IMG/VR virus record: IMGVR_UViG_3300025668_000018
Location: 1-43,010 of that record
Length of the DNA stretch: 43,010 nucleotides
Reading direction: 5' to 3' (one strand)
Source of the DNA: a virus
Positions 5,480-34,103 of the stretch are shown piece by piece (position 1 is the first letter of the stretch; each line of letters begins with the position of its first letter). Under the pieces are notes generated by a model, which was not told the DNA's origin, did not search any database, and saw only the letters and a list, made by a program, of their open reading frames with translations. A program made the translations under genes and the position numbers.

Positions 5480-5899
5480 ATGGCATTAAAGGAACTAGGG
5501 GGAAAGGACTTTAAAAAGTCGCGATCTTTCTCTGACATTTTAATTTCTATGCAGAGGAATCCCTTTACGGATGATACCTCTGTTGTTAAAAATGATAATG
5601 CCATCAAGCAAGCAGTTAAGAATTTAATCCTTACGCAACCAGGTGAGAAACCTTTTCAACCATTAGTCGGATCTAAAGTCTATAATCTCCTCTTTGAACC
5701 TCTAGATGCTTTCACAGCAGATAGTATCAAGGATGAGATCATAAATACCATTAATCAGTATGAACCTAGGGTAGAACTTACAGACGTAGATGTTACTGCT
5801 ATTCCCGAGGGTAACAAACTAAATGTTGCCCTTGAGTATAGGATTGTAGGGTTACCGATTGTTGAAACAATTTCATTTGTTTTACAGAGACCTGAATAA
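5480..5899 (+). CDS. 25: Baseplate wedge subunit gp25
   Basis: This 139-residue protein is a clear gp25/GPW family member, about the length of T4 gp25 (132 residues). It includes the N-terminal basic stretch with RNPFTDD, the helix NDNAIKQAVKNLILTQPGEK that the family conserves, a GSKVYNLLFEPLD segment, and the EPR motif (QYEPRVELTDVDV), followed by a beta hairpin (LNVALEYRIVG). In contractile tails gp25 binds the gp6 core and is thought to nucleate sheath polymerisation. Its TAA stop overlaps the ATG of gp6 by one base (TAATG), which indicates coupled translation. Confidence 0.95.
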   Translation: MALKELGGKDFKKSRSFSDILISMQRNPFTDDTSVVKNDNAIKQAVKNLILTQPGEKPFQPLVGSKVYNLLFEPLDAFTADSIKDEIINTINQYEPRVELTDVDVTAIPEGNKLNVALEYRIVGLPIVETISFVLQRPE

Positions 5900-10900: not shown

Positions 10901-13900
10901 TATAACGGATCTTTCCTTGTAACTTCTAGAGATAGTACTACTGTATTCCAGTATCAACTTCCTCAACCTGCAAATGTAGTTCCTCAAGGAAATATTCTTG
11001 TCTCTATTGACTTGAACAAAGGTAAGTCGGATAGTTCTGCAGTTAATAATGCAATCAGTCCTTACACAACGAATGTTCAGAATACATTCTTCAATACTAC
11101 AAACACTTATATTGCGTCTACAGGTATTCCAAACTATAATATTGGTCCTTTCCCTGGATCTGCATTATTACCTGGCAACCAACGTAAATTAAATAGATTC
11201 CCAATCAATCCTGTTACAATCTCAACCAAAAATTTGATTGTACCTGGTCCTATCGGAACTTGGGTTAATGGTGTCTCTATTTGGTCTTATAAGTCTGATG
11301 TCACTAAAATCTTTGGTGCTGTAACGTCAGTTGATATCACTAATGCAGGAAGCGGATATGATGCTGCATTCCCACCAGCAATTACGATTAGTGGTGGTGA
11401 AGGAACTGGAGCAGCAGCAAGTGCGACTGTTAACGGTTCTATCAGTGAGGTTACAGTAACTGCAGGCGGTTCTGGGTACACTTCTTCTCCATTGGTATCT
11501 ATTGTTGGTGGAGGCGGTTCTGGAGCGTCAGCAACAGCAATTATCACAAAGGGTGTAGTTTCTAGTATTCTTGTTAACTCTGGAGGAACTGGATATACAT
11601 CACAACCATCTATTACTGTTGTTGGTGGTGGGGGATCTGGTGCTGAGGGTACTGCAGCGGTTAGAGGACCAATTCAATCAGTCACTATCACTAATGGTGG
11701 GTCATCTTATACATCTAATCCTAGTATCATTCTTAGTTCTGGTACTGGTGCTGTTGCACAGGCAATTGTTAATGATGGACGTATTATTTCAATCGCTATC
11801 ATTTCGGCAGGTTCTGGATATACTACAGCACCAGAGGTAACTATCCAAGGAGAGGGTTTTGGTGCTGTTGCTAGAGCAACTATTGATGTTGATGGTGAAA
11901 ATGCTGGTAAAGTTACTGGAATTGAAATTATTAACAGAGGTATTGGATATAGTCAAGGTACGACTATTATCAATTTAAACTCTGTTGGTCAAGGTGCTAC
12001 TTTTGCAGCAAATGTATTCCAATGGACTTATAACTTACAAGAGACGACAACCGTTGATGCTGCTAAGGGATCTGTATTTGAGGGATTCAATAATCAGTAT
12101 GGTGGAGAATATGCACACCTTTCTAATCCTCAACGACTTAGATATATTTTAGGTGATAACCTATTTGTCAATGTAAGTGGACAAATTCTTGAACAGGATG
12201 ATCAATTAGCACACTCTCCTATTATTGGTTGGGCATTTGATGGCAATCCAATTTATGGTCCTTATGGATATTCAGATCCTACCAATCAGTCTTCTTCAAT
12301 CGCTAGATTGGGAACTTCTTATCGATTAAAGACAAATTTAGTTTATGATGTGATTACAAATCCAAATCCTGTTAGAACTGCTGGACCTCTTTTAACAGAT
12401 GAGATTGCAGGTAAGTTTGTAGAAGATTATGAGTATTCTTTCAGTTTAGGTGACCTTGACCAATACAATGGTAGATTCTGTAAGACTCCAGAGTATCCTA
12501 ACGGTAGATATTGCTACTTTGTAACTATTGATGCTACAGAAGCAGGCAATCCTGTATTCCCATATATTCTTGGACCAAGTTTTAACTCGGTTGTTGATGT
12601 CTGGAATCTTTCTACGAGTGCTGTTCAGCAAAATATTCCTATTGGTGTTGTTCGTTATCGCGATCCTTATGAAAATGTAGATATTGACGTTGAAAGGGCA
12701 CCAAATGCATCTACTAATGGATTGACATTGGAAAATGGCGATCTTCTAACTTTTGATGTAGAAGATGAAAATAGAGATGGTGTTATTAGTGCAGAAGAAA
12801 CTGCAGATCCAGATCAAATCTTTGAAGAGTCTCCATTACAACTATTCGATTACTTCCCGAAAGTAAAACTAGACTCCAAGGTTGATATTGAAGTTGAAAC
12901 TATCACTAAATTTGAGGATGCTTCAATTACAGGATTTGTTGTTGAAAATTCTGGTATTAACTATCAGGTAGATGATAGACTAATCTTTGATAATACAGAT
13001 ACTGGTGGTGATGGTGCTTCTGCACGAATTTCTAGAATTAAAGGTGAAACAGTTTCTGGGTATACATTTGAAAATGTTAGTGGTGAGAATTTTGGTGTAC
13101 TAACTACCAATGTCCCACATAATCTACAGCTTGATGATTCTGTTTTTGTAGATTATACTCCTATAATGGATAATACAAATAAAACATTTGTAGTCCGTCA
13201 ATATAAGGGTATTGAAGATATTGTAATTACACAATCTGGTTCTGGATACAATGAAGATATCCCTCCCACTCTTGTTATTGATGGAGATGGTATTTCTGGT
13301 GACCTTCAAGCAATTGTTACTAGTGTTGGATCAATTGATACCGTAAATATTCTTAATTCTGGTTCTGGATACACTTCTAATCCTAGAGTTATCATTAGCC
13401 ATCCTCAGGTATTCAAAAAAGCAGAATATATTGTTTCTAAAATAGAAAACAATGAAAATGTAAAAGTCAATGACATATTTGTAAACGAAAGTAAGGAAAT
13501 CTTTATCTGTGGTAAAACTTTAGACTCTAGTGGTAATGTTGTTGCATTTGTTTCTAAACTTTCCACAACAGGTGTCAAAGAGTGGGAAAAAACATTAGAA
13601 CTTACTTCTGGAACTAATTATGCAGAGTTCCAAAAACTCTATGTTGATGGTGATGATATCTGGGTAGTTGGTGTCAACCGACCAAATATCTTGGTTTTGG
13701 ATGCATATAATCCAGATATCATTTTGGTAAAATATACACAATCTTCTAATGGATTGAGTGCGACTCTTCAGTTCCAAAAAGGATATTCGGGAATCTCTGG
13801 TTCTACTAGAGCTGATAATGTCACATGTATCAAAAAATATTCAGATACTCGATATGTAATCGGAGGATATACTAATACTAACTCAGGAAGTCCTTTTGAT

Positions 13901-22900: not shown

Positions 22901-25900
22901 TCTGCTATTTACAGTGATAATACTGCATATAGAGATAGCGAAACTCCAACCGATATCGACCAAGCAGTTTGGAGACTTCGTGACCTAATTGATATTGTCA
23001 TTAATGGTCTCGCACCTGCAGGCAATGGAGTTAGAAATGCTGCCAAGAACTTCTACTTCAACCTCAAGTATTATAAGGATGAAATTGGAGCACAGATTGA
23101 TAGTCAGTTTGGTTCTGGTTCTTGGGTATATGATTCATTCCTTGAAGAAACTGCAAATAATATTGCAGCAGATAGTATCACAACAGATGTAAGTGCCTCA
23201 AATACCACTGTTGCTTATGAAATATCACTTTCTGGCATCATTGGAGACTTTGTAGCAGGAGAAACAGTAACATCCAGCAATGGTAGTACTGCGACTGTGC
23301 TTGAGTTTGATAAAGATAATCAGACAATTTATGTGGGACCCTTCTCATCCACTGCTTGGGCGGTTACTAATACTCTATCGGGTGGAAGTAGTTCAGCAAC
23401 AGCAACTATTGCTGCAGCATATGGATCTGTAGCATTTGATGGAACTGGTGACTATCTACAGACTGCTGCTGGTATTGCACTTGGAACTGGCAACTTTACC
23501 CTTGAGGGATGGATTCGTCGTACTGATACAAACAGCAACTTCTATCTATCTGGATCAACTGATAATAACTTCGGGTTCTTTGTAGGAACAGGTTCTTCTA
23601 ATGTCGGTTTCTACGGTGGAAGTAGTGGTAACTTTATTAATCTAACTAACACCACACTTACTGTTTCTGGGGGTAGATGGTATCACATTGCTGTTGTGAG
23701 AGAAGGAGTTGGTGCTAACCAAACTTCAATCTATATTGATGGTATTCTGCAAGGTAGTGGAACTGTTGCAACTAACTATGGTTCTACCACATTCGTTGTA
23801 GGTGCTAGTACATCTAGTACAGAATATGCAAATGGAAACATTTCTGATTGGAGATTGTCCAGCGTTGCTGTTTATCCAAAAGGAAGTACAGCAATTGGAG
23901 AAAAACTCTTTGCACTTCCTACACGACCATTTATTGCAGCAGACGTTACTGAAACCGAACTTATCTTGTGTCAAGGTAATACGATTCAAGATAATGGACC
24001 TAATAGTGTCTCAGTAACTGCTAACGGAAATGCTGCTGCTACTACAACTTCTCCCTTTGGATATTTCCCTGGTGTTTCCAACTCCTTTGATTGGTATATC
24101 TATCCTACCAATGTTGAGATTCTTTCTCAAGCAAGAGCAATTAGTTCTCCAGTCACAGGAGAAGTTAGTAGCGCAAATCTCTGGACTAATCCAGAAAATC
24201 TAAATTCGTCAAATTACACTTCTAACTTAGTTAATTATTTCTCTAATGTTACAAGTGCTCCTGATGGAACAGAAACTGCTGAAAAACTTTATGCTACAGG
24301 CACTGGAGTACATTCACTAACTAGAGATTTTAATCTAACTTCATATGAAACCTTTGACAATTCAACTGTAACATTTGATAGTGGTACTGAAACATTCGAT
24401 ACTGGATTTGGTGGTATTACTGAGCAGCAGACATTTACTCTGTCGGCATTCTTCAAGAAAGCAGAACTCGATAGTCTCAACTTCAAACTTTCTTTGGATA
24501 ATCAGTCGAAGAATATTAACTTCAATGTCAACCTTTCCACAGGTCAAGTTGATACAGGAACATTGTTTGTAAGTCCTGGTATTACTCTTAACGAGTATGG
24601 GGTAACACCAGTTGGTGGTGATTGGTTCCGTGTATACTCAACAATTACCTTCGGTTTTGGTATTGATAATCTTCAAAGTGACTTTGCTATCTACAATCGT
24701 TCATCTGTTGCTGCTTCTGGAAATCAAGGTTTCTATCTCTGGGGTATTAAACTCAACGCTGGTTTCCTTGATCCTTATACTGCTGGGTCTGGTAAGTTGT
24801 TCTATTCAAATACCGAATATAACATTAAGACATATGCGTTAGATCTTCTAAGAGAGTATATGGTTGCTTCAATTTCTAATGAACTTGTTGTTCCTTCCCC
24901 CATTGCTGCTGTAGGTTCTTTCTACCAGGATCCAACATCAGCAGCAGCTCTTGCTAATGGAAATTACAGCAATGAAAGCATCAGTAGATTGATTCGTTAT
25001 GGCACTAGCACAATTAAAAATCAGTTCATTAATGATGCATACTATACAAACCTCACTCAATATAATGCAGTAACTTTCGGTTCTAAAAACTACGGTGATA
25101 GAGATATTCCTGTAGGAATTACTGGAGGACTAAATTCTTCCGATTATTTCTATGGTCTGAGTTCCGATTCAAATGCCGAACTTGCAAATCTCACTATCAA
25201 TGAAGGTTTGATTGCTAAAGTTTACAGGAGATTCCGTATAGACGGCGATATTACTGATGGTCCATTCACCATGAATGAAGTTGTCGCTAAGCAGGGTGCT
25301 CCTAGTATTACTGGTGTAGTTTATGGATTCTATGAAGATGAGAACTTCAAGTATCTCGATGTCGAAGTTACTGCTGGTCCTTGGGCAGTTACAGACTTCA
25401 TTGTTGGAGCGGCAAACTCAACAACGGCACAAATCAGTGCAATCGAAGATCGTATTCACATTATCGATCTTAAAGGTGACTTTGTTCAGGATATTGAATT
25501 CCTTGGTTATACTTCTGGAGCAGTTGCTCAACCCACTTCATTCATCAAAGCAGAAGCATCCGTTACTTCTAATACTGGAGGTCTTCTGACAGTTGATACT
25601 GAGAGTTTGGTAGGCACTTTTGAGAAAAACTCGGTAGTCTATCCAGAATCGTCCAGACAGTATATTGATGTAAGTCAAATTTCTGGTCTTCAGGTATCGG
25701 TTGGTGATCGTATTGCATCTGATGGATATATCAGGTTGGGTGTCTCAGTCATCTCAACTTCTAATGTATTCATTGTTGGAAATAGGATTTATAAGGTTGT
25801 TAACAATCTTCAAGATAGCACCGTATATGGTGTTATCACCGAAGTAGATCTTGCTAACAATTACATCTACATCACAATGGTTCAAGGAGAATTCCAAAAT

Positions 25901-27067
25901 GGTGATTACATTGGAGATTATGGAGTCGATATTTTCCCTCAAGGATTCGCGACAATCAATACAAAGGTTGTTACTCCTGGAGCAGCCGCTGCTAGAGTTC
26001 AAGACATCAGAACAGCAGGATTGAGTAAGAGAATCTATCTTACAGATATTGCTGGAGCATTCTCTAGTAAAGATGCCATTATCGGAACTTCTGCATATAA
26101 GGCAGTTATCACCGATATTGTAGACCTTAAAGCTCGCGTGAAGAGATCCTCCAAAGGATTTGATGGTACACAAACTACCTTCTCTCTCACTATTGAAAAT
26201 GGAACTTCATATCTGCCCGACCCAGAGGGACATATGATGATTTTTGTCAACGGCATTCTTCAACCTCCTGGAGCAACTAACGCATATACAGCGTTCTCCG
26301 ACCAAATTCAATTCGCTGAGGCACCAGAACTTGGGTCCTCGTTTACTGGATTCTATATTGGTAAGTTGAGACAGTTGGATGATATCTCGTTTGAATTTGA
26401 TTCATTACGTCAGTCATTTAACCTCAAGCGTAACGAGGTATTCTACTCACTCACGCTGACAGAAGGTGTTCAATCTACTGTGATTAGACCTGAAAATAAT
26501 ATCATTGTTTCTCTCAATGGTGTTGTTCAGGAACCTGGAGTTGGTTTTGAGATTGTTGGTTCGCGAATCATCTTCTCTGAAATTCCTCGCGTAGATTCTA
26601 CATTCGTCGCGTTCTCTTATGTTGGTTCTGAAGCAGACGTTGATGCTGCTGAAGTAGTTCCACCAATCGAAACAGGAGATTTCATCGAAATTGAGGGTGA
26701 AACTGAGGATCGTGAGGTCGCGGTTATCGAATCGTCCAACTCACTCATCACCTTCGATTATCTTGGATCAGTCTTTGGTCAAGGTGCTATCGGACAATCT
26801 GCACTCACAAGTGGATTTATTAGTACTGTTCAGGTTACTTCTGGAGGTTCTGGTTATACAAGCAGACCTACAGTTAGAATCGATTCTATCTCTGGTTTCG
26901 ATGGTAACATCCGTGCATTGGTTGGTATTTCTAGTGTTGAATTGAATAGTTATGGTTCTGGATATCAGAATCCAGTTATCATTGTTGAGAGTGAAGTTCC
27001 TGATGATTGGACCGCACCAAATCTCGCAGATTATGGTGAGGAATTAATTGATCCAGAGATTGCATAA
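7937..27067 (+). CDS. Giant multidomain virion protein (6376 aa), baseplate/fibre-like
   Basis: A single unbroken 19.1-kb frame. The order by approximate residue is as follows. 1-60: conserved start (PLFNKFIEYYYQSQEKTG). 300-590: seven GGxGY repeats. 655-740: helical region (IKDFYSAKGTSFSIAYLFK). 1128-1352: six more GGxGY repeats. 1425-1550: YHYH-like domain (GWAFDGNPIYGPYGY, TPEYPNGRYCYF). 1610-1621: an EF-hand-like loop (DENRDGVISAEE). 1843-2211: seven propeller-like blades. 2215-2432, 4145-4340 and 5162-5378: three LamG-like domains. 3015-3250: more GGxGY repeats. 4380-5070: three helical repeats. 5412-5620: a carbohydrate-binding-like module. C-terminus: two LNGVxQ modules and two GGxGY repeats. 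Its position after gp6 is that of T4 gp7, but homology to gp7 is not shown. LamG-like and propeller folds suggest glycan binding on the host surface (inference). It shares the gp25-gp6 late transcript. Confidence 0.85.
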   Translation: MDINKVSHVSSYQTPQFIESEYPLFNKFIEYYYQSQEKTGLGQNIVNNFLQYLNIDKLDISILDGATRVVEPVGVSDTTITVETVDPFLEKDGSVLIGDEVIYYEETVSSPNIALTPGISYTQVQLKWVLLANNISLFDGTRTVFPLVSQDNPIGPSSPQHLIVKVYGRTLTPVVDYNISGTNIVYTTAPRVATASDDISTTSVTYLNGFSENTIVQVDDISSAFGDNKTSFELTVNNQKYEPIADEFLLAVYDNRLLVPKVDYFTDGSIFVFNVPPLNGRSLSLYSIEAPIPSFGSGAVGYARVNDFGNISSVIPSANGSGYRFDYPPKVSVNSSVGSGASVKTLVDGIKSVSLLSGGAGYSESNPPTVKVQFPTKEGYVEPTLKATVTNGAVSAIDIVSSGSGYTFTPRITFEQPGGAILATPTIVNGSVSGAITITSGGQGYTTPPLVYIDEPTGVDGIKASFTTTLTDGEITTVNILNAGQGYETVPRISVIDPVGAQVLETKVDGDGRVISVELLFGGNGYTDVPSVYIVDNRQNDVGTYIGGTGATAVAAIFNGQITDINITNFGTGYSADNPPQIVIQKPVDAKASATVGLQEITGFSVLKSGKEYTKAQFLGCARAASGITNYTQDGNAVFSNNTVAAAAPTDASVKCLDALFVKRLLDKYTEQFLPDVPTLDYSKIDVRTSIKTIKDFYSAKGTSFSIAYLFKLLYGETVTVSYPKDQIIKPSAATWSVDTVLRATLVSGLPENIQDGLLCQVADISDPNILAATALIENFISIQTAQDTIYELALSEETIQGTFIVPYKTKLAEPLNTTEGIITVDSTIGWPERNGEFVISTGVGSEVVQYKEKSLNQFIECTRSVNGVVEDWDSATQVSSNFNVFINKGTAQEVVLNIVGIVDAQQTTLTDTGSYYLPGDKLLISKLGGTGTGPELTTWLYNVKKLIEVGTITFGGINNQSATVTCNNPHGLLVGDQVTIYGANPIIYNGSFLVTSRDSTTVFQYQLPQPANVVPQGNILVSIDLNKGKSDSSAVNNAISPYTTNVQNTFFNTTNTYIASTGIPNYNIGPFPGSALLPGNQRKLNRFPINPVTISTKNLIVPGPIGTWVNGVSIWSYKSDVTKIFGAVTSVDITNAGSGYDAAFPPAITISGGEGTGAAASATVNGSISEVTVTAGGSGYTSSPLVSIVGGGGSGASATAIITKGVVSSILVNSGGTGYTSQPSITVVGGGGSGAEGTAAVRGPIQSVTITNGGSSYTSNPSIILSSGTGAVAQAIVNDGRIISIAIISAGSGYTTAPEVTIQGEGFGAVARATIDVDGENAGKVTGIEIINRGIGYSQGTTIINLNSVGQGATFAANVFQWTYNLQETTTVDAAKGSVFEGFNNQYGGEYAHLSNPQRLRYILGDNLFVNVSGQILEQDDQLAHSPIIGWAFDGNPIYGPYGYSDPTNQSSSIARLGTSYRLKTNLVYDVITNPNPVRTAGPLLTDEIAGKFVEDYEYSFSLGDLDQYNGRFCKTPEYPNGRYCYFVTIDATEAGNPVFPYILGPSFNSVVDVWNLSTSAVQQNIPIGVVRYRDPYENVDIDVERAPNASTNGLTLENGDLLTFDVEDENRDGVISAEETADPDQIFEESPLQLFDYFPKVKLDSKVDIEVETITKFEDASITGFVVENSGINYQVDDRLIFDNTDTGGDGASARISRIKGETVSGYTFENVSGENFGVLTTNVPHNLQLDDSVFVDYTPIMDNTNKTFVVRQYKGIEDIVITQSGSGYNEDIPPTLVIDGDGISGDLQAIVTSVGSIDTVNILNSGSGYTSNPRVIISHPQVFKKAEYIVSKIENNENVKVNDIFVNESKEIFICGKTLDSSGNVVAFVSKLSTTGVKEWEKTLELTSGTNYAEFQKLYVDGDDIWVVGVNRPNILVLDAYNPDIILVKYTQSSNGLSATLQFQKGYSGISGSTRADNVTCIKKYSDTRYVIGGYTNTNSGSPFDAFIALIDTAGSFAIKRKIASVDDSEKLTDIVVDDGNIYFTLETSNTSSDNNVNVAFGKAIVGTNAIEVEYINEYSNAGYSFLDSSLAIDEFKELYITSTLRAKSDNVTRDSVWVGKVNTAGSFVWNYRYLAPGRDVNAVGKCAVDIFGDLNIAFNRVDNTTGLKTVDTVKIGYDGVVKNHTTNEFNENRIEGITAHSIDVDNSGDVYVFGQTSWNRNEFLLEFTGGATTDTFGNYTPTFVGADATQSLHLDGGVAKIYGRDIATPANWENAYIEFPNNTLGNTLNENWTLEFMLYQDSASTDTHSQDQQTLVAIGDATDATGGLWLYYDRTAAGPSGYLELVVTNNTTSINSAGGAVQSTLTTMFADDTWQFIGLKKEGNVFTVYVNGISVITATVADTSFTSKKLYIGNIAGRNGTTGNWRKDEQGQYFVDNLKLRNRAINPTVPSDVSVLPTNGAFGLSYSWTDTAWFSTYNNVHDYIDYSGWGVKVDKDADSARIGDQGIQLVTQLGYVRTAVTPVTGSTLTIGSTGFALGSLGLQSLDFDDATTVMTQDTETLTYTKDIWSSRTATIPSPGSQKLIISAVVKDRYYFKVTNTVKIDNVQILTVNQAFRFTVGTKLVLNDDSGSFVNSGYITKVDTDNNKVYLAVNNNSWTDDLNTGQLSTTQFSEQSTYGIVGPIPLDINQIDSYTFAQVDNTTPGTFTIDLDKYNLDGTYNAAGGQNLDSFAKFKPYSDDDYAVRIDEISGSSTFIVGSVVTINGGDISYNAAYSTATITNLTGVLKITLVANLTKILRVTAVANSDEVYVITDTRHYLTPGSMLNVDGNPSETVNTVVYDEYDGSFPVDTVISPLEFTYKLPQAAVTSPASSSGNVSIYVKSPVLKMYYGHQYLFDLSHSSMLGGNLSFSKDPLYKLEYSFNSIERVGTPGVTGQGATTPTVKFKVDEGIVTNISYYFDPSRVGDNDSPIIQGSYLDVVTSPYKGTFQVSGVAGATITRGADQIKFPLINEPEGNADVSRASYSTSSRRAVGSIDSIRIVNPGGFYTRLPIVDSIQSTRQIERVSITEPGTEYAVGQYTGVAIAGDGEGGFVTITVADGTDSEGSPIPGQVQSVLVTSPGKGYTTATVDIDSVPGILGAGLTGSGAEVTVVIPPFGTAASIFTVGSSVGKIKKLKNNNFGYDYPHDYTLRPEITFPINAQLTSTSILDSVTITDPGSGYSQAPAVIITGGGGTGAIAQSTIKNGRLDRIEVKDPGLGYSSTPSVELKSSFNYVVNLDLGLLQFSFPHGIAQGSEITLNVVDTGDGADFPIAAGAVGRLNGLTTYYAISGAANSLEDDQLKFAITPANAALGDALSFTNAGTGRQQVLTTSFGGAATANVITSTFLEGEQVYQGSSFENATALGFVSTNNGWQVGPRIVKIVDYTGDFNIGESITGVISKSSGTISSLNIATGVLDVGSITETSGQFIDDVGKPSEIIQKIQDSYYYQDFSYAVKSAVSINEWKDILIKNVHPASFKVFGELNLNEYGFVPNKETFFQLTKSVELARQATVPNIQSFALVEPVYSAFDNTEVLFRQKRLTSSENILTSVVQRLDDISNLFDGERISFPLQIDGSNVVANANQLMIILNGVVQTPDTSFEVQNDSIVFSEPPQPPASVKYVNVTIQPIQVYKFTITNNSGIFPSTNNTVLGTQSGSRLTVTSVVGDDIFGFVAEGNVGIVTALNNATLTSGAGYTDGTYSDVATTSSGVGTGLTVNITVASGAVTQASINSVGVGYASSEVITITGGTTSATIAVSTVSGFNINELISVGATGFTATLTEITPIVNLNLFSFNEQIKNLTGKIAVVEEVNLETGDSVPLADLRYTIGAGTSTVEVIDSAALTDTAVPASVFSVDANYQLGAEIVTVSAITVGPNSTTLTVLRGQLGTTATSHQEDLPLYGTDISITNELALSKTVGTYQSKPGLFDIRLDDVIIGSQSGVVARITSTSAYQDPTTNEFIEQVNISDGSSFFGLLFNRLTSASYPNVILDNISESQVNIVDFTDNTTNFDAKFPGTEFISNLVIPYDNATGTFQENEIIRNYKLGYGNVTGVFNSSENMITKKLAFDSRVGSGFFQLGQVIRTQDTKGEVIGYNQALSTIYLGKVGRTLSTGEDYHQVTFANNAQLDTDQSHYGLSSLLLDGTGDYLSIPTSAEFGFGAGAFTIECWIRPSSVTGTQQIFDFRTTAVEVSSELLLVGTNLNYRVNNSTTITGTATLAVDTWYHVAISRNAATTKLFVNGTQDGGDYSDGSNYGSTKPIIIGASYAFGDGFAGHIDEFRVSNTSRYQTTFTAPTGIFQGDANTKLLLHFEGADTQTYVEDWSGGESFTDNEDFNNDAILKNWNENSTNLPAGFAGKSQRYYDAANLIESNKDFVAKEAVYLLTQQYPSLVIPGGNVNCEDDVRDILTALIEDMRNGCNSHIWDASALYVNRTVNPITISHVDTEVVETVWAYDKVKDILQYIINNTLWSVSGSHGVRQITDTTITDSSTGSFTTIQPSAISYNAATGDMVMTSNSHGLTTANTIAIAAESLTFTCTSDGNERELIHPRKSDTRAYNQVLAITAADTNTFTVNVGASPAEQQYVHTFVSATSNAVTVLDYTTGDCADVYSTIGNLLDILTDTLEQANLGSPVDHLATITKVTTNYEFVGATVNAYLEVPFSTTYHSAASDILYTNRIDTSARGRFRDASNLINANASVIVDKAAFDMLSRYPDLAIDMPRNAAGGSTDGTLRCKTDLGLILGAIAKDIYDGGNFFTVQAARFYIGENDELRHIRLQVWQSVYAHDRLAYYAKQAVTGDLTYDNTDNIIVGDWGITNDAGNCANVQSAIDTLVTTINDIIAPTSEDFNIAGDRLYFNREYIAEEITGLTAAYLTYQVDNANQVAYTYDTAKCERDIKLLITAIISDLQTGGNNSTVDNMGLYLTANGELNYVEEELLPTVFAFEQIRTLGEKAIRNLLYDAGATVSGQQYSAIYSDNTAYRDSETPTDIDQAVWRLRDLIDIVINGLAPAGNGVRNAAKNFYFNLKYYKDEIGAQIDSQFGSGSWVYDSFLEETANNIAADSITTDVSASNTTVAYEISLSGIIGDFVAGETVTSSNGSTATVLEFDKDNQTIYVGPFSSTAWAVTNTLSGGSSSATATIAAAYGSVAFDGTGDYLQTAAGIALGTGNFTLEGWIRRTDTNSNFYLSGSTDNNFGFFVGTGSSNVGFYGGSSGNFINLTNTTLTVSGGRWYHIAVVREGVGANQTSIYIDGILQGSGTVATNYGSTTFVVGASTSSTEYANGNISDWRLSSVAVYPKGSTAIGEKLFALPTRPFIAADVTETELILCQGNTIQDNGPNSVSVTANGNAAATTTSPFGYFPGVSNSFDWYIYPTNVEILSQARAISSPVTGEVSSANLWTNPENLNSSNYTSNLVNYFSNVTSAPDGTETAEKLYATGTGVHSLTRDFNLTSYETFDNSTVTFDSGTETFDTGFGGITEQQTFTLSAFFKKAELDSLNFKLSLDNQSKNINFNVNLSTGQVDTGTLFVSPGITLNEYGVTPVGGDWFRVYSTITFGFGIDNLQSDFAIYNRSSVAASGNQGFYLWGIKLNAGFLDPYTAGSGKLFYSNTEYNIKTYALDLLREYMVASISNELVVPSPIAAVGSFYQDPTSAAALANGNYSNESISRLIRYGTSTIKNQFINDAYYTNLTQYNAVTFGSKNYGDRDIPVGITGGLNSSDYFYGLSSDSNAELANLTINEGLIAKVYRRFRIDGDITDGPFTMNEVVAKQGAPSITGVVYGFYEDENFKYLDVEVTAGPWAVTDFIVGAANSTTAQISAIEDRIHIIDLKGDFVQDIEFLGYTSGAVAQPTSFIKAEASVTSNTGGLLTVDTESLVGTFEKNSVVYPESSRQYIDVSQISGLQVSVGDRIASDGYIRLGVSVISTSNVFIVGNRIYKVVNNLQDSTVYGVITEVDLANNYIYITMVQGEFQNGDYIGDYGVDIFPQGFATINTKVVTPGAAAARVQDIRTAGLSKRIYLTDIAGAFSSKDAIIGTSAYKAVITDIVDLKARVKRSSKGFDGTQTTFSLTIENGTSYLPDPEGHMMIFVNGILQPPGATNAYTAFSDQIQFAEAPELGSSFTGFYIGKLRQLDDISFEFDSLRQSFNLKRNEVFYSLTLTEGVQSTVIRPENNIIVSLNGVVQEPGVGFEIVGSRIIFSEIPRVDSTFVAFSYVGSEADVDAAEVVPPIETGDFIEIEGETEDREVAVIESSNSLITFDYLGSVFGQGAIGQSALTSGFISTVQVTSGGSGYTSRPTVRIDSISGFDGNIRALVGISSVELNSYGSGYQNPVIIVESEVPDDWTAPNLADYGEELIDPEIA
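8840..9705 (+). repeat. GGxGY protein-repeat block 1 in the giant gene
   Basis: Seven imperfect repeats of about 35-45 residues, each with a Gly-rich turn ending in GY (NGSGY, GGAGY, SGSGY, GGQGY, AGQGY, GGNGY, FGTGY), then a Pro, then short beta strands and a NGxI/V strand. The regular strand-turn spacing suggests a beta-solenoid or string of small beta units. The repeats are coding and diverged at the DNA level. Confidence 0.75.
11320..11990 (+). repeat. GGxGY protein-repeat block 2 in the giant gene
   Basis: Six repeats, the most regular of the gene. GGSGYTSSP and GGTGYTSQP lie 39 residues apart and the next GGSSYTS is 38 further on, with GGGGSGA turns midway between. The register shows a unit of about 38-39 residues. 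The same unit appears in the 853-, 510- (gp8) and 1405-residue proteins of this window. Confidence 0.78.
16980..17690 (+). repeat. GGxGY protein-repeat block 3 in the giant gene
   Basis: Five more diverged copies, recognisable by NPGGFY, EPGTEY, SPGKGY, DPGSGY and DPGLGY, again with a GGGGTGA turn between the last two. Here the two residues before the turn are usually a residue plus Pro, a sub-type distinct from the SGG/AGG copies of blocks 1 and 2. Confidence 0.68.
21073..23150 (+). repeat. Three tandem copies of a helical module in the giant gene
   Basis: Residues of about 4380-5070 contain three related units. Each has an 'LI-x-x-N-x-x-x-V/I' helix, then a Cys-x-x-Asp helix (NCEDDVRDIL, RCKTDLGLIL, KCERDIKLLI), an Asn/Gly-rich turn, an A/G-x-LY or RFY segment, then a V-x-A-x-(D/E) helix (VWAYDKVKD, VYAHDRLAY, VFAFEQIRT). 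The rest of the protein is mostly beta, so this is a helical island. It lies between the second and third LamG-like domains. Confidence 0.65.
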
Positions 27068-27089: not shown

Positions 27090-28310
27090 ATGGCTAAACA
27101 AGCACTAAACCTTGGAGCTTCTGCTAATGACAATACGGGGGATACCCTCCGTATTGGTGGTGATAAAATTAATGATAATTTTAACGAACTATATACCGCT
27201 TTAGGTAATGGAGTAAGTTTAACTGTTAATACATTGAACCCCGTTGCAGGACAGGTTCTTCGTTATAATGGATCTACTTTCCTGCCTTCAGATTATAGTA
27301 ATCTTACATCTGCTTTAGATGTAAATGGAAACTCAATTATTTCATCCAGCGATGGTAATATTCCTGTCGCTGCAAACGGTACTGGTGTTATTACATTAGC
27401 ATCCAACTCGATTACTTCGACATTTGGTGCTAATGTTGACATTCCTACAATCGTAAAGTATAAAAACGAATATGCAACTTTAGGAGATGCTCCTGCTGCA
27501 GCATCCTATCCTGGTTACTTTTTTACTGTAGACGGTACTGATGACCCGTATGTAAACATTAATATCACTGCTGGGGGTCTTGGTGATGTTAGAGCAAAAC
27601 TTCTCACTGAGTATTCAAGTATTGATGATTTGAGTAATGTTGATGTCACAACAGCAGCACCAACAGCAAATCAAGTTCTTAAGTGGGATGGTTCTAATTG
27701 GATTCCTGGAGATGACCAAGCAGGTGTAAGTGCTATTAATGTTTTCCAGACTGTCACTGCAGATTCGGGAACTACTACTGCAAACAGTCAAACAGACACT
27801 CTTACTATTGCTGGTGGTACTAATATTACTACAGCAGTTGTTGGTGATACTTTAACTGTAAACTTCAGTGGCACTCTTACTACTACTTTAGCAGCATTAA
27901 CTGATACTGATACTGCTGGTCTTACTCAGGGCGATATGCTCTATTGGAATGGTTCTAATTGGATACCAACTCGCAGTCCAATGCTTTGGTATGAAATTGG
28001 AGCACCTCCAGGAAATAATTCCAATTACTATACAATAGCAGGACCTGGATCATCTATCGCTACTCAAAATCCCACTATCTATGTTCATAGAGGATTCACA
28101 TATGCCTTCGATAATAGTGTCGAAGGTGGTGGTCATCCTTTTAGAATTCAATCTACTCAAGGACTGACGGGCACTCCGTATACTGATGGACAGAGTGGAA
28201 GTATAACCAATGTTCTTTATTGGACAATTCCAATGGATGCACCGAATACACTGTATTATCAGTGTACTCTCCATTCATTGATGCAAGGCACCTTTACCGT
28301 CGTAAACTGA
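27090..28310 (+). CDS. Fibre-like structural protein with C-terminal cupredoxin-like domain (406 aa)
   Basis: The N-terminus has the motif NLGASANDNTGDTLRIGGDK and then INDNFNELYTAL, common at the start of phage tail and fibre proteins. Three short units with the pattern 'L-[YW]-[ND]-G-S-x-[FW]-x-P' follow (LRYNGSTFLP, LKWDGSNWIP, LYWNGSNWIP). The last 90 residues look like a cupredoxin: strands YVHRGFTYAFDN and GGGHPFRIQST, then LYYQCTLHSLMQGTFTVVN. His349, Cys392, His395 and Met398 fit the four type-1 copper ligands, and the Cys-x2-His-x2-Met spacing is that of amicyanin. Whether copper is bound is not known; the domain may be used as a stable beta sandwich. The gene ends with TGA, three bases before the next ATG. 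Confidence 0.83.
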   Translation: MAKQALNLGASANDNTGDTLRIGGDKINDNFNELYTALGNGVSLTVNTLNPVAGQVLRYNGSTFLPSDYSNLTSALDVNGNSIISSSDGNIPVAANGTGVITLASNSITSTFGANVDIPTIVKYKNEYATLGDAPAAASYPGYFFTVDGTDDPYVNINITAGGLGDVRAKLLTEYSSIDDLSNVDVTTAAPTANQVLKWDGSNWIPGDDQAGVSAINVFQTVTADSGTTTANSQTDTLTIAGGTNITTAVVGDTLTVNFSGTLTTTLAALTDTDTAGLTQGDMLYWNGSNWIPTRSPMLWYEIGAPPGNNSNYYTIAGPGSSIATQNPTIYVHRGFTYAFDNSVEGGGHPFRIQSTQGLTGTPYTDGQSGSITNVLYWTIPMDAPNTLYYQCTLHSLMQGTFTVVN

Positions 28311-28313
28311 TAA

Positions 28314-31300
28314 ATGACAAGAACCGTACCTGGATCAGGAGCGCAAATTAATCCGATCTTCGATGAAGTTTTTGGTGTTCGCGCTGTAGAATTAATTAGT
28401 GGTGGAACTGGATACGATCCTGCCGACCCTCCAAGATTAACCATCGATGGTTGCGGCACTCCTGCTCAAGAAGCACTGCTATATCCAATCATTGATAAAG
28501 ATTCGGGTAGAATTGTTCACGTTCGTGTTCTTCAAAGGGGTAGCGGGTATGATCCTCTAAGACTTAAAATTGTTCCCACGTCTGAAACACCAAATGTTTT
28601 AGACTCTTTTGATGTTAATAGAATCTGGCAAAATCATCCAAATTCATTGACAAGAGGCACCTTCCAGACTTCTGGTACACCTCCTGTTAAGAATGATAGA
28701 CTTCGTATTGAGTCTGATAATAATCCTAAACCTACTTGGATATTAGAAGAGGCACAACCTGGAGGTTCTGGAAATATTGTAGACAGATCTTTTGACCAAG
28801 TTTTTATATATCGTGGTGGTAAAGATGTTCCTTATGAAGGAACTAGAAGTTTTCAAAATAATAAATCTTTAGGAATTCTGGCAAACGGTGGTTTATTACA
28901 TACTCCAGAATGGGGTACTTTTGGCAATGCACCAACAAACTTTTCTATTGATACTGTAAAATATGATTATGTTAAAAATACTGACGCTAATGATGTAATT
29001 CTTGACAATTCGATTCATTACTATCAGACTAGTAAATTAATTAATGAATTTGATAATCATAACGGCGTATTTCAGTGGGGGTCTTTAGAGCAGTTTGTTT
29101 GGAATATTAAGGTAGAGTTTAATAATGTCATGCTTTTCGTCGATAATGTAGACGAAACTCTAAATCCAATTGAAATTGGTAGGACGATAAATGAAGTAGG
29201 CGGTTCTTCTTCGGGAGAGATTGCAAAAATTGTCAGAAATGCTCAGAACCAGATTGTTAGAATTTATTTAAGAGATGTTATAGGGACTTTTGAGACAACT
29301 GATTTTATTTTAGGATCTACGGGATTCACATTTAGAATTAATGGCGACCCGATTCTATTCCCCAATGGTCTCTTCTATATTGATTTTGGTGTTGATGCTC
29401 ATGAGTTTGGTTCATTTATTCCTGGAGTGTATTATCTCGCCCCAGAAAATATTAAAGTTCAAAGAAACTATCTGATTATTTGGAATCAAACTGATGCGAC
29501 AAATCAACCGTCAGCACAGCACGCTCAAGGTCATCCAATGCAATTCAGTACGACCCAAGATGGTCTTCTGAATAACGGAACTTTATATTACAATAGTACA
29601 GGCGCATCTTCTGCACCTGCAGTAGATTATGAAGATGAGTTTAACCCACTCTTCATTATGAATGCAGATGAAAATAATCGCATTTATTATTACTGCAAAG
29701 TTCATCGTTATATGTCAGGATATGAAGGTGATGAAGGATACATGTATCTAGATCCTGCTATTGAAGAGGAAGAGGAACATGCAAATAACTACTATTATAA
29801 GAATTATTATCAAACCGATTCAAACGATCCAAACACTATTGATAGATCTCGTCATGTAGATGGTCACTCAAAAGTCCTTGGTATGTCTTTTGATGGATAT
29901 CCTATTTACGGACCATTTGGATATACTACTGGCAGGACTGTCGGCAGAATGACGAGTTCGTTTAGATTTAAAACTACTGCTGAACTTTCTGGTACTAGAG
30001 AGGAGGTTGTAACTGCGAGCACTGTAACATATGCTGTTACTATTTCAAATTCTAAATTTTATTTTAACGGACAAGAACAAGAATTACTGAATCTGAAAAG
30101 AGGGAAAACTTATATCTTCAATCAAGATGATGCTAGCAATACTGCTAATGGCAACTTCTTGATGTTCTCCTTGACTGAAGATGGTTGGCACGATACAGGA
30201 AGTTCACTTGATATTGGAACAACTTCATATCTATATGATGCTTCAGGTTTAGTTGAATATTATTTGGATGGAGTTCTAACACCATATGCCACATATTTGG
30301 GCGGTTTTGCTAGTGCGACGACAAGAGAAGTTCGTATTACTATTCCTGTAAATTCACCTAGGGTTGTTTATACTTTCTCATATTCAAATTCTGGTTATGG
30401 ATCTCGTCTTGTTAATGAAGGATATATTCTTGGTGATTTGACTCAGGACTATATCTACGATTCTTCTGTAGGCAATCTTGACCAATATAATGGTAAGTAC
30501 GTTGTTACCCCAGAATATCCGAATGGTACTTATGCATATTTCATGACAGAGGATAGTAGTGGGAATCCCGTTTATCCATATGCGATTGGTCCCCAGTACT
30601 ATGGAACACCTATATTTGAAGGTGATGCTATTCCCGAACAAGTATCAGTTTTCCCAACTGAAGCAGAAGGTGATATTGTCCTTAATACTGATGGGACGGT
30701 ATCTTATATTAAGATGACTAAAAACGGTGATAACTTCTTCGGTACAGCAAAAGCAGTTATTCTTGGGGGCGAAGGAACTGGTGCTGCAGCAACTCCTGTC
30801 ACTCAAACTATTACTGGTCTATCGTTGTTAAACGAAGGTAGAAGTTATGCAACACCACCAAACCTTATCTTTGAAGGAGGTGGTGGACAAGATGCTGAAG
30901 GTGCAGCATCAATTGATACTCTCGGTAAAGTTACGTCAATTAATGTTGTTGATGGTGGTGAATTCTATCAGACAGAACCATATATTCTTTTGACTGGTGG
31001 TGGTGGACTTGGCGCAAAGGCAGAAGCAGTTATTAGTCAAGGTGCTATTACTGGTATCAATATTACTGATCCTGGAAAAGGATATACCTCTCCACCAAAT
31101 ATTGTCTTCACTAGACTTGTAAATCTTAAGCGTAAAACCAGATCTCGTCAGGCATTTAACTCCTCTGATATTTACTTGACAGGTCTGACTAAAGCACTCA
31201 GTTCTAGTGATACTACAGTTTATGTTTCTTCTACAGATGCATATCCAGGATCTGGTTCTCTCATAATCGATAAAGAAACTATCTCATATACTTCTAAAAG

Positions 31301-32531
31301 TAGAGGTAGATTTACTGGAATTACTAGAGGTGTTAATTTTAAATATGACCAAAGAGTTATATTAGACGACGGGCAGAATGATGCTAATGGAGATTCCAAC
31401 TATAAGTTTAATGTTGGTGATAGAGTAATTCGTAGGGTTGAGAGTGCTAATAATAAAATTGCTAAAGTATATGATTGGGATCCTAGCACTAGAGAACTTT
31501 TAGTTACGTTTGAAGTAGACGAACTTGCATTCATTGATGCTGGAATCCCTTCAACTACTGATGCTATCGTTCAGTTTGATGCTGGTGTTGCAAATAGTAG
31601 TGGAACAGGTGTTCTTCCACATACAATTATTAATGCGGTTGGTAGTAGCATATCTACTTTAACCGTACCAATTGGAGCACTTGTAGATAAAGCGTTTGAG
31701 GATAATGATGAAAATGAAGATCCTTTGAATCCAGGAACATTCTTAGGAGATGGTATTGCAGATTTAATTAATACTGCTACAGATTATGCAAGTCAAATCA
31801 GTCTAGATGGTGGCATTTTCGATTCATTGTATGGTATTGAAGAGACTCAAGGTGGTCAAAATACTACATTACTTCAAGTTGGAGATAATATCAAAGACGC
31901 AGATATACCATTCAAATATGCCACAATTACTTCTGCAGGTGGATTGAGTGATGGTGTTGAACACCCTGTTCTTTTGACACTGACGTTGGATGCTTCTAAT
32001 GGTAACGGTCAAAACTACAGTACAAATGAAGTTGTAACTGGTGCTATCTCAGGTATTCAAGGAACGGTAGTATCTTGGGATATTACTTCATCAAAATTAG
32101 TATTGAAGGATATTGTTCCTTTCAATACAAATAATGTTAATATTGGTGTAAATGGATATCTGTACGAGTTCTCAAGTAACAGTACAGTTGTTGATATTGT
32201 TGTCGTGAATAACGGAACAAACTATACCGCAGTTCCAAATATTGTTATTGAAAGCACGGGTGATATTCAAGCAACTGGTACTGCTGTTATGTCAACATCT
32301 GGTGACCGAGTAGATTCTATAACCATTTCAAATGGAGGTTATGGAATCCCTCAAACAGTTGACAATAGTTATAATCTACACCCAACAATCACATTTACAA
32401 ATACTGGTGGTGATATCACTGGTTCTGGTGCAGCAGCTCAGGCAGTTTTGGGTGGAGAAAATGTGACTGGTAATGGCGGAGCGAGTTATCGTATCAAATC
32501 TATTGAATACTCTACATTAGTTCGCTCGTAA
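28314..32531 (+). CDS. Large structural protein with cupredoxin-like and YHYH-like domains (1405 aa)
   Basis: The order is: two GGxGY-type repeats (GGTGYDP, RGSGYDP) near residues 28-80; a GExITG-like unit around 280-345; a cupredoxin-like domain around 372-480 with His407, Cys461, His464 and Met467 as candidate copper ligands (GHPMQF and YYYCKVHRYMSG); and a YHYH-like domain starting at FDGYPIYGPFGY (about 525). That domain is interrupted by about 130 residues of a second cupredoxin-like unit without metal ligands, then resumes at LDQYNGKYVVTPEYPNG (about 723). GGxGY repeats follow (about 840-930), then a module with ITRGVNFKYDQ (about 955-1020), another GExITG unit near 1240, and final GGxGY-like repeats. 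It has no T4 counterpart known to me. It is probably a fibre or baseplate appendage cotranscribed with the 406-residue gene. Confidence 0.83.
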   Translation: MTRTVPGSGAQINPIFDEVFGVRAVELISGGTGYDPADPPRLTIDGCGTPAQEALLYPIIDKDSGRIVHVRVLQRGSGYDPLRLKIVPTSETPNVLDSFDVNRIWQNHPNSLTRGTFQTSGTPPVKNDRLRIESDNNPKPTWILEEAQPGGSGNIVDRSFDQVFIYRGGKDVPYEGTRSFQNNKSLGILANGGLLHTPEWGTFGNAPTNFSIDTVKYDYVKNTDANDVILDNSIHYYQTSKLINEFDNHNGVFQWGSLEQFVWNIKVEFNNVMLFVDNVDETLNPIEIGRTINEVGGSSSGEIAKIVRNAQNQIVRIYLRDVIGTFETTDFILGSTGFTFRINGDPILFPNGLFYIDFGVDAHEFGSFIPGVYYLAPENIKVQRNYLIIWNQTDATNQPSAQHAQGHPMQFSTTQDGLLNNGTLYYNSTGASSAPAVDYEDEFNPLFIMNADENNRIYYYCKVHRYMSGYEGDEGYMYLDPAIEEEEEHANNYYYKNYYQTDSNDPNTIDRSRHVDGHSKVLGMSFDGYPIYGPFGYTTGRTVGRMTSSFRFKTTAELSGTREEVVTASTVTYAVTISNSKFYFNGQEQELLNLKRGKTYIFNQDDASNTANGNFLMFSLTEDGWHDTGSSLDIGTTSYLYDASGLVEYYLDGVLTPYATYLGGFASATTREVRITIPVNSPRVVYTFSYSNSGYGSRLVNEGYILGDLTQDYIYDSSVGNLDQYNGKYVVTPEYPNGTYAYFMTEDSSGNPVYPYAIGPQYYGTPIFEGDAIPEQVSVFPTEAEGDIVLNTDGTVSYIKMTKNGDNFFGTAKAVILGGEGTGAAATPVTQTITGLSLLNEGRSYATPPNLIFEGGGGQDAEGAASIDTLGKVTSINVVDGGEFYQTEPYILLTGGGGLGAKAEAVISQGAITGINITDPGKGYTSPPNIVFTRLVNLKRKTRSRQAFNSSDIYLTGLTKALSSSDTTVYVSSTDAYPGSGSLIIDKETISYTSKSRGRFTGITRGVNFKYDQRVILDDGQNDANGDSNYKFNVGDRVIRRVESANNKIAKVYDWDPSTRELLVTFEVDELAFIDAGIPSTTDAIVQFDAGVANSSGTGVLPHTIINAVGSSISTLTVPIGALVDKAFEDNDENEDPLNPGTFLGDGIADLINTATDYASQISLDGGIFDSLYGIEETQGGQNTTLLQVGDNIKDADIPFKYATITSAGGLSDGVEHPVLLTLTLDASNGNGQNYSTNEVVTGAISGIQGTVVSWDITSSKLVLKDIVPFNTNNVNIGVNGYLYEFSSNSTVVDIVVVNNGTNYTAVPNIVIESTGDIQATGTAVMSTSGDRVDSITISNGGYGIPQTVDNSYNLHPTITFTNTGGDITGSGAAAQAVLGGENVTGNGGASYRIKSIEYSTLVRS

Positions 32532-32570: not shown

Positions 32571-34103
32571 ATGGCAGCTCTATTAACTGATCAATTTAGG
32601 ATTTTCTCAGCGAGAAAGTTCATTAAGGCATTGGAAGGACCCGATGCCACTCAGAGTGATGATGTAGCAGGTACAACGAGAGATCGTTTATACCTGTTCA
32701 TTGGTCGTCCTCAAACTTGGGATAATGAAAATTCTCCTCCTCAAGCAGTAGATTCCTTTGAGGAATTTTCTGGTTCTTATGATGACATGATCTCTTTGAA
32801 GCGCGTCCTCGCTTCAGATACTGTTCAGGTTGTTCGTCGTATTGACTGGGTTTCTCCAGAACAAACTACAGGTGGACTTGGTTTCACCTATGACATGTAT
32901 CGTCATGATTATTCTCCTAGCAAGACTGCTTCTTCTGGTGCTACCAAACTTTATGACTCAGATTTTTATGTTGTAAACTCACAATATCAAGTTTACAAGG
33001 TAATCTATAACGGCACATCTCCTTCGGATCCTAACGGCAAACCCTCTACAGTTGAACCTACAGGTTCTTCTACTAGTATTATCACTACAGGTGATGGATA
33101 CCGTTGGAAGTACATGTATACAATTCCCGTTGCCTCAGTCCTTAAGTTTTTCTCCAATGATTACATGCCCGTCTTTACAAATGACGCGGTAAGAACCAAT
33201 GCGGTTGCTGGAGAAATTGATACCGTAGTCATTAGTTCTGCAGGTTCTGGATATAACAACGGCACTTATGACAACGTTGCCATTAACGGCGACGGTACTG
33301 GCGGTAGAGTTTCTATTGTTATTGATGGTGGTAGAATTATTTCTGCTACTGTAACTTCTGGTGGTACTGGATATACATTCGGTAAAATCAGTATTGATTC
33401 TATTACTGGTATTGGTACTGGTGCTAGTGGTATTGTTGATGTTATTATGCCTCCTCCTGGTGGGCATGGTTCTGATTCTGTTGTAGAACTTGGTGCATTC
33501 CGAGTCATGGTTAATGCTAAACTTTCTTATGATGAAGGTGCTGGAGATTTTCCAATCGATAACGACTACCGTCGTATTGGTCTTGTTACCAATCCTCTGA
33601 AGTTTGGTACGGAAGAACTCATTTCAGACTTGACAGTTTCTGCTGCTAAAGCAGTCATCTTCTCTCCTACATTCCAAGGCAACTATGTTCCTGATGAAAT
33701 TGTTACTCAAACAAGAGTTGTTGGTGGTGTAAGTATCACTGGTCGTGGCAGAGTGATTTCATGGAATCCTACTACTAAAGTATTGAAGTACTATCAGAAC
33801 TCAATTGATGGTATTTTCCCTGAAGTTACAGGCACGCAAAACGAACTTGACGGTTCTAATGTTATTAGTGGGGCAACTTCTGGTGCCGCTGGGCAACCAG
33901 ATGTAAACTTCCCTGCTGTTCCTAACTCATCTTCTAGAACAATTAATAATACAGAATATGATTTAGGTATGAAGTTTAACAATGGTTATGGAAAACCCGA
34001 AATCAAATCAAACAGCGGTAATGTTGTTTACATAGATAATAGACGGGCAATCAGTCGTGCAAACGACCAGGTAGAAGACATCAAAATCGTAATCGAATTC
34101 TAA
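32571..34103 (+). CDS. 8: Baseplate wedge subunit gp8, expanded with repeat modules
   Basis: The N-terminal part is gp8-like: FRIFSARKFIKALEG, an RLYLFIGRPQTWDNENSPP segment, MISLKRVLASDTVQVVRRIDW, and YDSDFYVVNSQYQVYKVIYN followed by GDGYRWKYMYTIP, a series conserved in cyanophage gp8. At 510 residues it is clearly longer than T4 gp8 (334). Much of the extra length is repeat modules: two GGxGY units around residues 214-300 (SAGSGYNNG, SGGTGYTFG) and a GExITG-type unit around 367-410 (YVPDEIVTQ ... GRVISWNPTTKVLKY). After the first insert the gp8-like sequence resumes (FPIDNDYRRIGLVTNPLKFG). In T4, gp8 dimers link the wedge components. Its TAA overlaps the next ATG by one base. Confidence 0.9.
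   Translation: MAALLTDQFRIFSARKFIKALEGPDATQSDDVAGTTRDRLYLFIGRPQTWDNENSPPQAVDSFEEFSGSYDDMISLKRVLASDTVQVVRRIDWVSPEQTTGGLGFTYDMYRHDYSPSKTASSGATKLYDSDFYVVNSQYQVYKVIYNGTSPSDPNGKPSTVEPTGSSTSIITTGDGYRWKYMYTIPVASVLKFFSNDYMPVFTNDAVRTNAVAGEIDTVVISSAGSGYNNGTYDNVAINGDGTGGRVSIVIDGGRIISATVTSGGTGYTFGKISIDSITGIGTGASGIVDVIMPPPGGHGSDSVVELGAFRVMVNAKLSYDEGAGDFPIDNDYRRIGLVTNPLKFGTEELISDLTVSAAKAVIFSPTFQGNYVPDEIVTQTRVVGGVSITGRGRVISWNPTTKVLKYYQNSIDGIFPEVTGTQNELDGSNVISGATSGAAGQPDVNFPAVPNSSSRTINNTEYDLGMKFNNGYGKPEIKSNSGNVVYIDNRRAISRANDQVEDIKIVIEF

Follow-up and report, generated by a model that had tools for sequence, protein, structure and literature searches.

The window, the whole stretch of 43,010 nt that was analyzed, belongs to a T4-like marine cyanophage and contains its baseplate operon, with the gene order gp6-gp7-gp9-phrog_708-gp8 (Table 1). 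Counterparts of the giant protein are labelled 'similar to gp7' or 'baseplate wedge initiator' in the records of relatives. The protein under study was matched end to end, over residues 1-1405, by PHROG family 708 ('baseplate wedge subunit') with 2513 bits, and this full-length family match together with the operon position identifies it as a phage baseplate protein. It is an ordinary member of phrog_708 of T4-like cyanophages, and no difference from the other members was seen. In the GenBank record of P-SSM3 (HQ337021), the phrog_708 gene is an open frame of 1265 aa (L083 2499-6294) for which there is no annotated CDS.

Table 1. Genes of the baseplate operon and features of the phrog_708 protein and its neighbors, in positions of the window
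Feature	Position (nt)	Strand	Residues, size or motif	Evidence
gp6-like gene	5899-7929			
Giant gene (gp7-like)	7937-27067		6376 aa	
Uninterrupted YHYH domain of the giant protein (comparison domain)	12011..12538	+		PF14240 model 47-185, single piece
gp9 gene (tail-fibre connector)	27090-28310			
Third cupredoxin-type unit of the operon, gp9 C-terminus	27945..28307	+	CTLHSLM at 28263	
Host ORF of the nested unit, phrog_708, between gp9 and gp8	28314..32531	+	1405 aa	
YHYH first segment	28860..29081	+	~183-256	Alignment with relatives lacking the upstream insert
Upstream insert, first part: beta domain	29082..29438	+	~257-375	Absent in upstream-lacking relatives; VIA
Upstream cupredoxin unit D1	29439..29765	+	376-484; H407, C461, H464, M467	Ligand alignment, hhalign
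YHYH second segment	29784..29987	+	491-558; RHVDGHSK...DGYPIYGP	PF14240 model 74-137; H518, D527
Nested cupredoxin-fold unit without ligands	29988..30422	+	559-703	PF14240 gap, alignment, hhalign, AlphaFold2 model
Former Cys-His-Met loop	30378..30407	+	689-698; now [A/S/G]-Y-x5-G-x-R	Conservation in 100 proteins
YHYH third segment	30423..30629	+	704-772	PF14240 model 138-184
gp8 gene	32571-34103			

The YHYH model PF14240 matched above its curated cut-off at three places in the window. In the 1405-aa protein it was matched in two pieces, model 74-137 at 29790-29987 and model 138-184 at 30417-30557, which scored 41.4 and 26.5 bits (cut-off 25). The break lies between the adjacent model positions 137 and 138 and is filled by the nested unit (residues ~559-703). 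The initial annotation of this DNA had described a unit that splits a YHYH-like domain, and the split is real, the model being cut at 137/138 by residues ~559-701. The domain of the giant protein that it named as the uninterrupted form was indeed matched in one piece, but its extent (residues ~1359-1534) was wider than the 1425-1550 claimed. The insertion is not a normal part of all YHYH domains. Ten YHYH domains were uninterrupted, and the gaps found elsewhere were of 18-36 residues; the candidate explanation that the nested unit is a standard part of every YHYH domain was ruled out on these grounds.

In the phrog_708 proteins of Lowelvirus (ACG-2014d) and Ahtivirus (S-RIM14), of 1154-1186 aa, the stretch from the YHYH-motif strand to RHxxGHSK is shorter by about 230 residues. 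Their first PF14240 piece is unbroken (model 18 or 11 to 137), and in the window and the other genomes bearing the upstream unit this piece starts at model 74 to 93. The unbroken piece in the upstream-lacking relatives therefore shows that this YHYH domain has a second insert, residues ~257-490. An intact and a dead metal site in one protein, with one of them inserted into another domain, had been noted before; both states were found, but the intact unit also lies inside the same YHYH domain. The beta domain of the insert (residues 87-168 of the structural model described below) matched residues 764-844 of the T4 baseplate chain 5iv5_BJ in VIA (Z 7.9, rmsd 2.7, 76 residues); from its length, we take this chain to be gp7. 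The cupredoxin unit that follows matched the profile of nested units that keep the metal site (live units) with E 8e-8, all four ligands being aligned by hhalign, and by this match it appears to belong with the cupredoxins. Among the named phages, the upstream insert was present in 216 of 50,697 records, one per record. A query with the split YHYH domain matched 431 records, 280 of them with at least 80% cover.

Relatives were compared in an alignment set of 115 distinct phrog_708 proteins, 100 with the upstream unit and 15 without it. The set was selected for the YHYH pieces and the nested unit, and absence of the nested unit was judged from the 160-domain survey described below. Of 159 rows, six had no anchor and were not extracted; L132 and L133 were re-added by hand, which gave the 115 distinct rows, and the giants L161, L162 and L164 were excluded as a different protein.

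The degenerate YHYH-motif strand was located at residues 235-238 (HYYQ) by blastp against the intact YHYH protein of S-WAM1 and by the motif columns. These columns are mostly Y/H-Y-Y-Q in the 115 rows, so the motif histidines have been lost in phrog_708; an intact motif was found in separate proteins. H518 and D527 were invariant (115/115). For YHYH domains of phage tails, a passage of PMC7824862 gives a predicted metal-dependent hydrolase with a site of three histidines and one aspartate, and the domain is also treated in part of PMC7029224. Because the motif histidines are lost, the predicted YHYH metal site would be incomplete in phrog_708. Thus, the 1405-aa protein shares with YHYH domains the passing of the PF14240 cut-off, H518 and D527, but phrog_708 differs from them in the lost motif histidines and in its two cupredoxin inserts. 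In proteins of the S-RIM2 type (L087 1968-7106; L047; L049), the last YHYH segment is enlarged by a further insert, about 290 residues long, with the histidine-rich stretch HVFHTLHMHGL. Both upstream-lacking genomes searched (L081 1-1502, L082 1-1422) encode, ahead of gp9, an additional stand-alone protein whose YHYH domain is uninterrupted, and in L081 the YHYH motif of this protein is intact. In the same PF14240 search, eight upstream-bearing genomes had YHYH only in the giant and in the split domain.

The alignment with relatives that keep the site placed N614, S689, N692 and Y695 of the nested unit in the His, Cys, His and Met columns, as had been read from the window, and the type-1 copper ligand set (His, Cys, His, Met) is absent from this unit. 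Homology to the upstream unit, which had likewise been proposed, was borne out by hhalign. The profile of the upstream unit matched that of the nested units without the site (dead units) with E 5e-6 over 38 columns, compared with E 0.03-0.5 for five column-shuffled control profiles. Dead and live nested units matched each other with E 3e-46 and form a single family. Chance resemblance as the source of the ligand pattern was excluded, since live relatives define the columns and shuffled profiles gave no match.

The AlphaFold2 model of residues 181-774, built from 79 aligned sequences, had a mean pLDDT of 92.4 and a pTM of 0.82. The earlier reading required the intervening segment to be a beta sandwich, and the model and structure searches predicted one that matches cupredoxins. 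The best PDB matches of the model in Foldseek were laccases and Cu nitrite reductase, with some S-layer proteins too, at TM-scores that are low and were taken over the whole multi-domain model. Model residues 384-523 (564-703 of the protein) matched auracyanin A in VIA (Z 8.0, rmsd 3.1, 105 residues). The dead nested unit also matched rusticyanin (Z 7.8) and small laccases (Z 7.7), where a Z under 8 by itself may reflect a common arrangement; the rows listed were cupredoxins almost throughout, and the listing was taken up by the nested unit, not by the upstream one. The nested unit is predicted, from model and sequence together, to have a Greek-key beta sandwich of the cupredoxin type, a fold that we hold to because sequence homology to ligand-bearing units backs the structural match. 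The live nested unit of L125 matched a Cu nitrite reductase domain with Z 9.0 in a model that was poor overall (mean pLDDT 53), from which only residues ~150-300, mostly at 80-95, were used.

Pfam PF00127 and PF13473 gave no match above the curated cut-off for the upstream, nested or gp9 unit. A search for solved structures related by sequence gave none that was convincing, only antibody chains (E 0.51 and 0.28). For the live nested unit, cellular relatives were sought in GTDB contigs by a scan of limited reach, which gave 68 pattern matches with none confirmed. Cyanophage PSS2 encodes a free-standing protein of 112 aa that resembles the nested unit (L292 4962-5300), lacks the Cys and His ligands and is annotated 'baseplate wedge subunit'.

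Among the proteins with the upstream unit, this unit carries the full type-1 set of four ligands in 100 of 100, while the nested unit of these proteins has the Cys in 0/100, the second His in 0/100, the first His in 5/100 and the Met in 5/100. The nested unit of the upstream-lacking proteins (Lowelvirus- and Ahtivirus-type) has all four ligands in 15/15. We also surveyed 160 distinct cupredoxin-bearing YHYH domains, besides the ten uninterrupted ones; N-truncated domains (<200 residues) were skipped and uncounted. The upstream unit was live and the inside one dead in 118 domains, and 21 domains had no upstream unit and a live one inside. In 11 the upstream unit was dead and the inside one live, all of them in giants with two YHYH domains (L161 type). 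Both sides were live in nine, eight being giants of the L161 type and the ninth L265. The only domain dead on both sides by the pattern used was that of S-RIM4, a phage outside the set of 100 proteins, whose upstream unit keeps His, Cys and His and has lost the Met (CKNHGSYHP; L291 4239-8378); this is the only changed upstream site seen in phrog_708. At least one C-x2-H-x2-M site was thus kept in 159/160 domains, and an inner unit was present in all of the 127 domains with a live upstream unit. A strict rule of exactly one live site per domain fails, because 9/160 domains are live on both sides, and redundancy is therefore tolerated.

Cupredoxin-type units were also found elsewhere. The motif C-x2-H-x2-[ML] occurred within the last 150 residues of gp9 in 91 of 91 distinct proteins, from phages both with and without the upstream unit. 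The phrog_708 protein of L265 (1940-6499) carries, along with a live upstream and a dead nested unit, a third, live cupredoxin (CQAHGYM) that splits the second YHYH segment. The giant family (L161, L164, L239) has two YHYH domains with cupredoxins in both loops of each; in the second YHYH domain of L239, the upstream-side unit is dead and the inner one live. The L161 giant also has a tandem cupredoxin pair, one of which passed PF00127 (22.6 against 21.2 bits).

In a core tree of 45 of the 115 rows, from which both cupredoxins were omitted, a single branch (SH-aLRT 99) separated the upstream-bearing from the upstream-lacking proteins. The cupredoxin tree gathered the dead nested units in one clade (99) with the live ones outside it, and this clade lay within a larger group (94) that also included live nested units and the inner unit of the giants. 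The upstream units formed a separate clade on a long branch. The dead state most likely arose once, from a live state, as judged from these sequences. The complementarity within phrog_708 is essentially a single event, and the many rows are therefore not many tests. A mirror loss was seen in the giant two-YHYH family, which lost the upstream-side site and kept the inner one (11 rows). The closest profile to the upstream unit was the giants' upstream-side unit (E 4e-10), followed by the live nested units (9e-7). The giants' inserts lie, by eye, about 10-20 residues off the phrog_708 insert positions and are therefore probably separate insertions of related modules.

The explanation that we consider probable is a hand-off of the metal site from one cupredoxin module to another on a shared YHYH scaffold, with the older module left structural. 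That relatives without an intact upstream module keep the nested site suggests such a transfer. The nested unit would once have carried a type-1-copper-like His-Cys-His-Met site, which would have been lost once, in the lineage with the upstream module (the beta domain together with the intact cupredoxin). The upstream unit may have replaced it functionally by taking over the job of the site, and the emptied nested unit would have been retained, with its ligand loop rebuilt, as a module that carries no metal and serves structure or contacts in the baseplate protein. The sequences themselves show the nested domains, the ligand state of each unit, the relatedness of live and dead nested units, one origin of the dead state and purifying selection.

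The strongest alternative, although a doubtful one, is reciprocal loss, in which the ancestor had both units live, like the second YHYH domain of the giants, and one lineage then lost the nested site and the other the upstream insert. Live/live domains do exist (9/160), and the tree with outgroups leaves the order of events undecided; however, the offset of the giants' inserts points to separate insertions, and the uninterrupted YHYH domains have neither insert. Internal duplication within this protein, in either direction, with one copy then losing its metal site, is unlikely, even though the two units are homologous and stand in one protein. In the tree, both dead and live nested units fall together with units from another phage protein, apart from the upstream unit; the latter has a long branch to itself, beyond the nested-unit clade, and its nearest profile is likewise a cupredoxin of another phage protein, the giants' upstream-side unit. 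Moreover, live nested units occur in relatives without any upstream unit. The suggestion of the initial annotation, a duplication after which the nested copy died, is not upheld by these results.

Next to the proposed metal-site hand-off, a further question is what keeps the emptied unit. We analyzed dN/dS as a ratio of means over close pairs (109 nested, 106 upstream, 109 YHYH) and obtained 0.161 for the nested unit, 0.109 for the upstream unit and 0.132 for the YHYH domain. Divergence relative to YHYH had a median ratio of 1.50 for the dead unit and 1.34 for the live units; the dead unit is hardly faster than the live ones, so little relaxation shows. In the former ligand loop, Y690 is conserved in 99%, G696 in 100% and R698 in 99% of the 100 proteins. 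The repurposing of the dead unit proposed earlier can be kept in view of the dN/dS of about 0.16, the confident fold and the new conserved Y-G-R pattern, and the unit appears to be kept by purifying selection and still in use. One could read the new loop residues (Y690, G696, R698) or W625-H626, whose columns are 98-100% conserved in the 100 proteins, as a site for another metal or ligand. We think this improbable, as W625-H626 is also conserved in the live units and hence not new, and the old metal positions vary freely. That the nested unit is neutral debris being lost is extremely improbable despite the loss of all four ligands, since neutral decay is rejected by the dN/dS of 0.16, the inner unit is kept in 127/127 domains and the model confidence is mostly >90.

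Nested domains and copper-free cupredoxin domains are already known kinds. The nested unit shares its fold with the type-1 copper proteins (auracyanin A, rusticyanin, two-domain laccases, Cu nitrite reductase), and the upstream and live nested units also share their His...Cys-x2-His-x2-Met order; the short C-x2-H-x2-M loop resembles that of amicyanin. The nested unit of the window differs from these proteins in having no ligands, and both units differ in being inserts in a baseplate-type YHYH domain. Multicopper oxidases and the blood factors V/VIII, which were among the matched structures, have, in tandem within a single chain, cupredoxin domains of the copper type and others that are free of copper. 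In contrast, the two cupredoxins of phrog_708 sit within loops of a third domain, and which of them is empty varies between relatives. In the literature searched, we found no report of a YHYH baseplate domain with two nested cupredoxins whose live and dead sites are complementary among sister phages, and no description of copper-protein-like modules (upstream, nested, gp9) of cyanophage baseplates. In the paper on the tail of Anabaena phage A-1(L) (PMC10966104), a term search gave no mention of cupredoxin or YHYH.

The metal-site hand-off would be a clear natural case in which a metal site was lost in one domain and is carried, in the same protein, by a domain that is not its recent copy, while live and dead nested states both persist in sister phages. 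It also suggests that cyanophage baseplates contain a layer of copper-protein-like modules, made up of the upstream unit, the nested unit and gp9. From their ligand order, the sites are predicted to bind copper. As to what the predicted metal does, stability of an exposed virion domain is a plain guess and a copper- or redox-dependent switch a bold one. A broader proposal, which we regard as rather unlikely, is that the YHYH scaffold of this baseplate protein must carry one or more type-1 copper sites in marine T4-like cyanophages, at a place that is not fixed: cupredoxin modules would be inserted repeatedly into different YHYH loops, the site would move between modules, and emptied ones would stay as building blocks. 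If this were true, each virion would, with the gp9 C-terminal unit, display many copper sites at its host-contact end, and infection might use these as a switch that depends on copper or redox state. The role of the metal in cyanophage attachment becomes testable with recombinant proteins.
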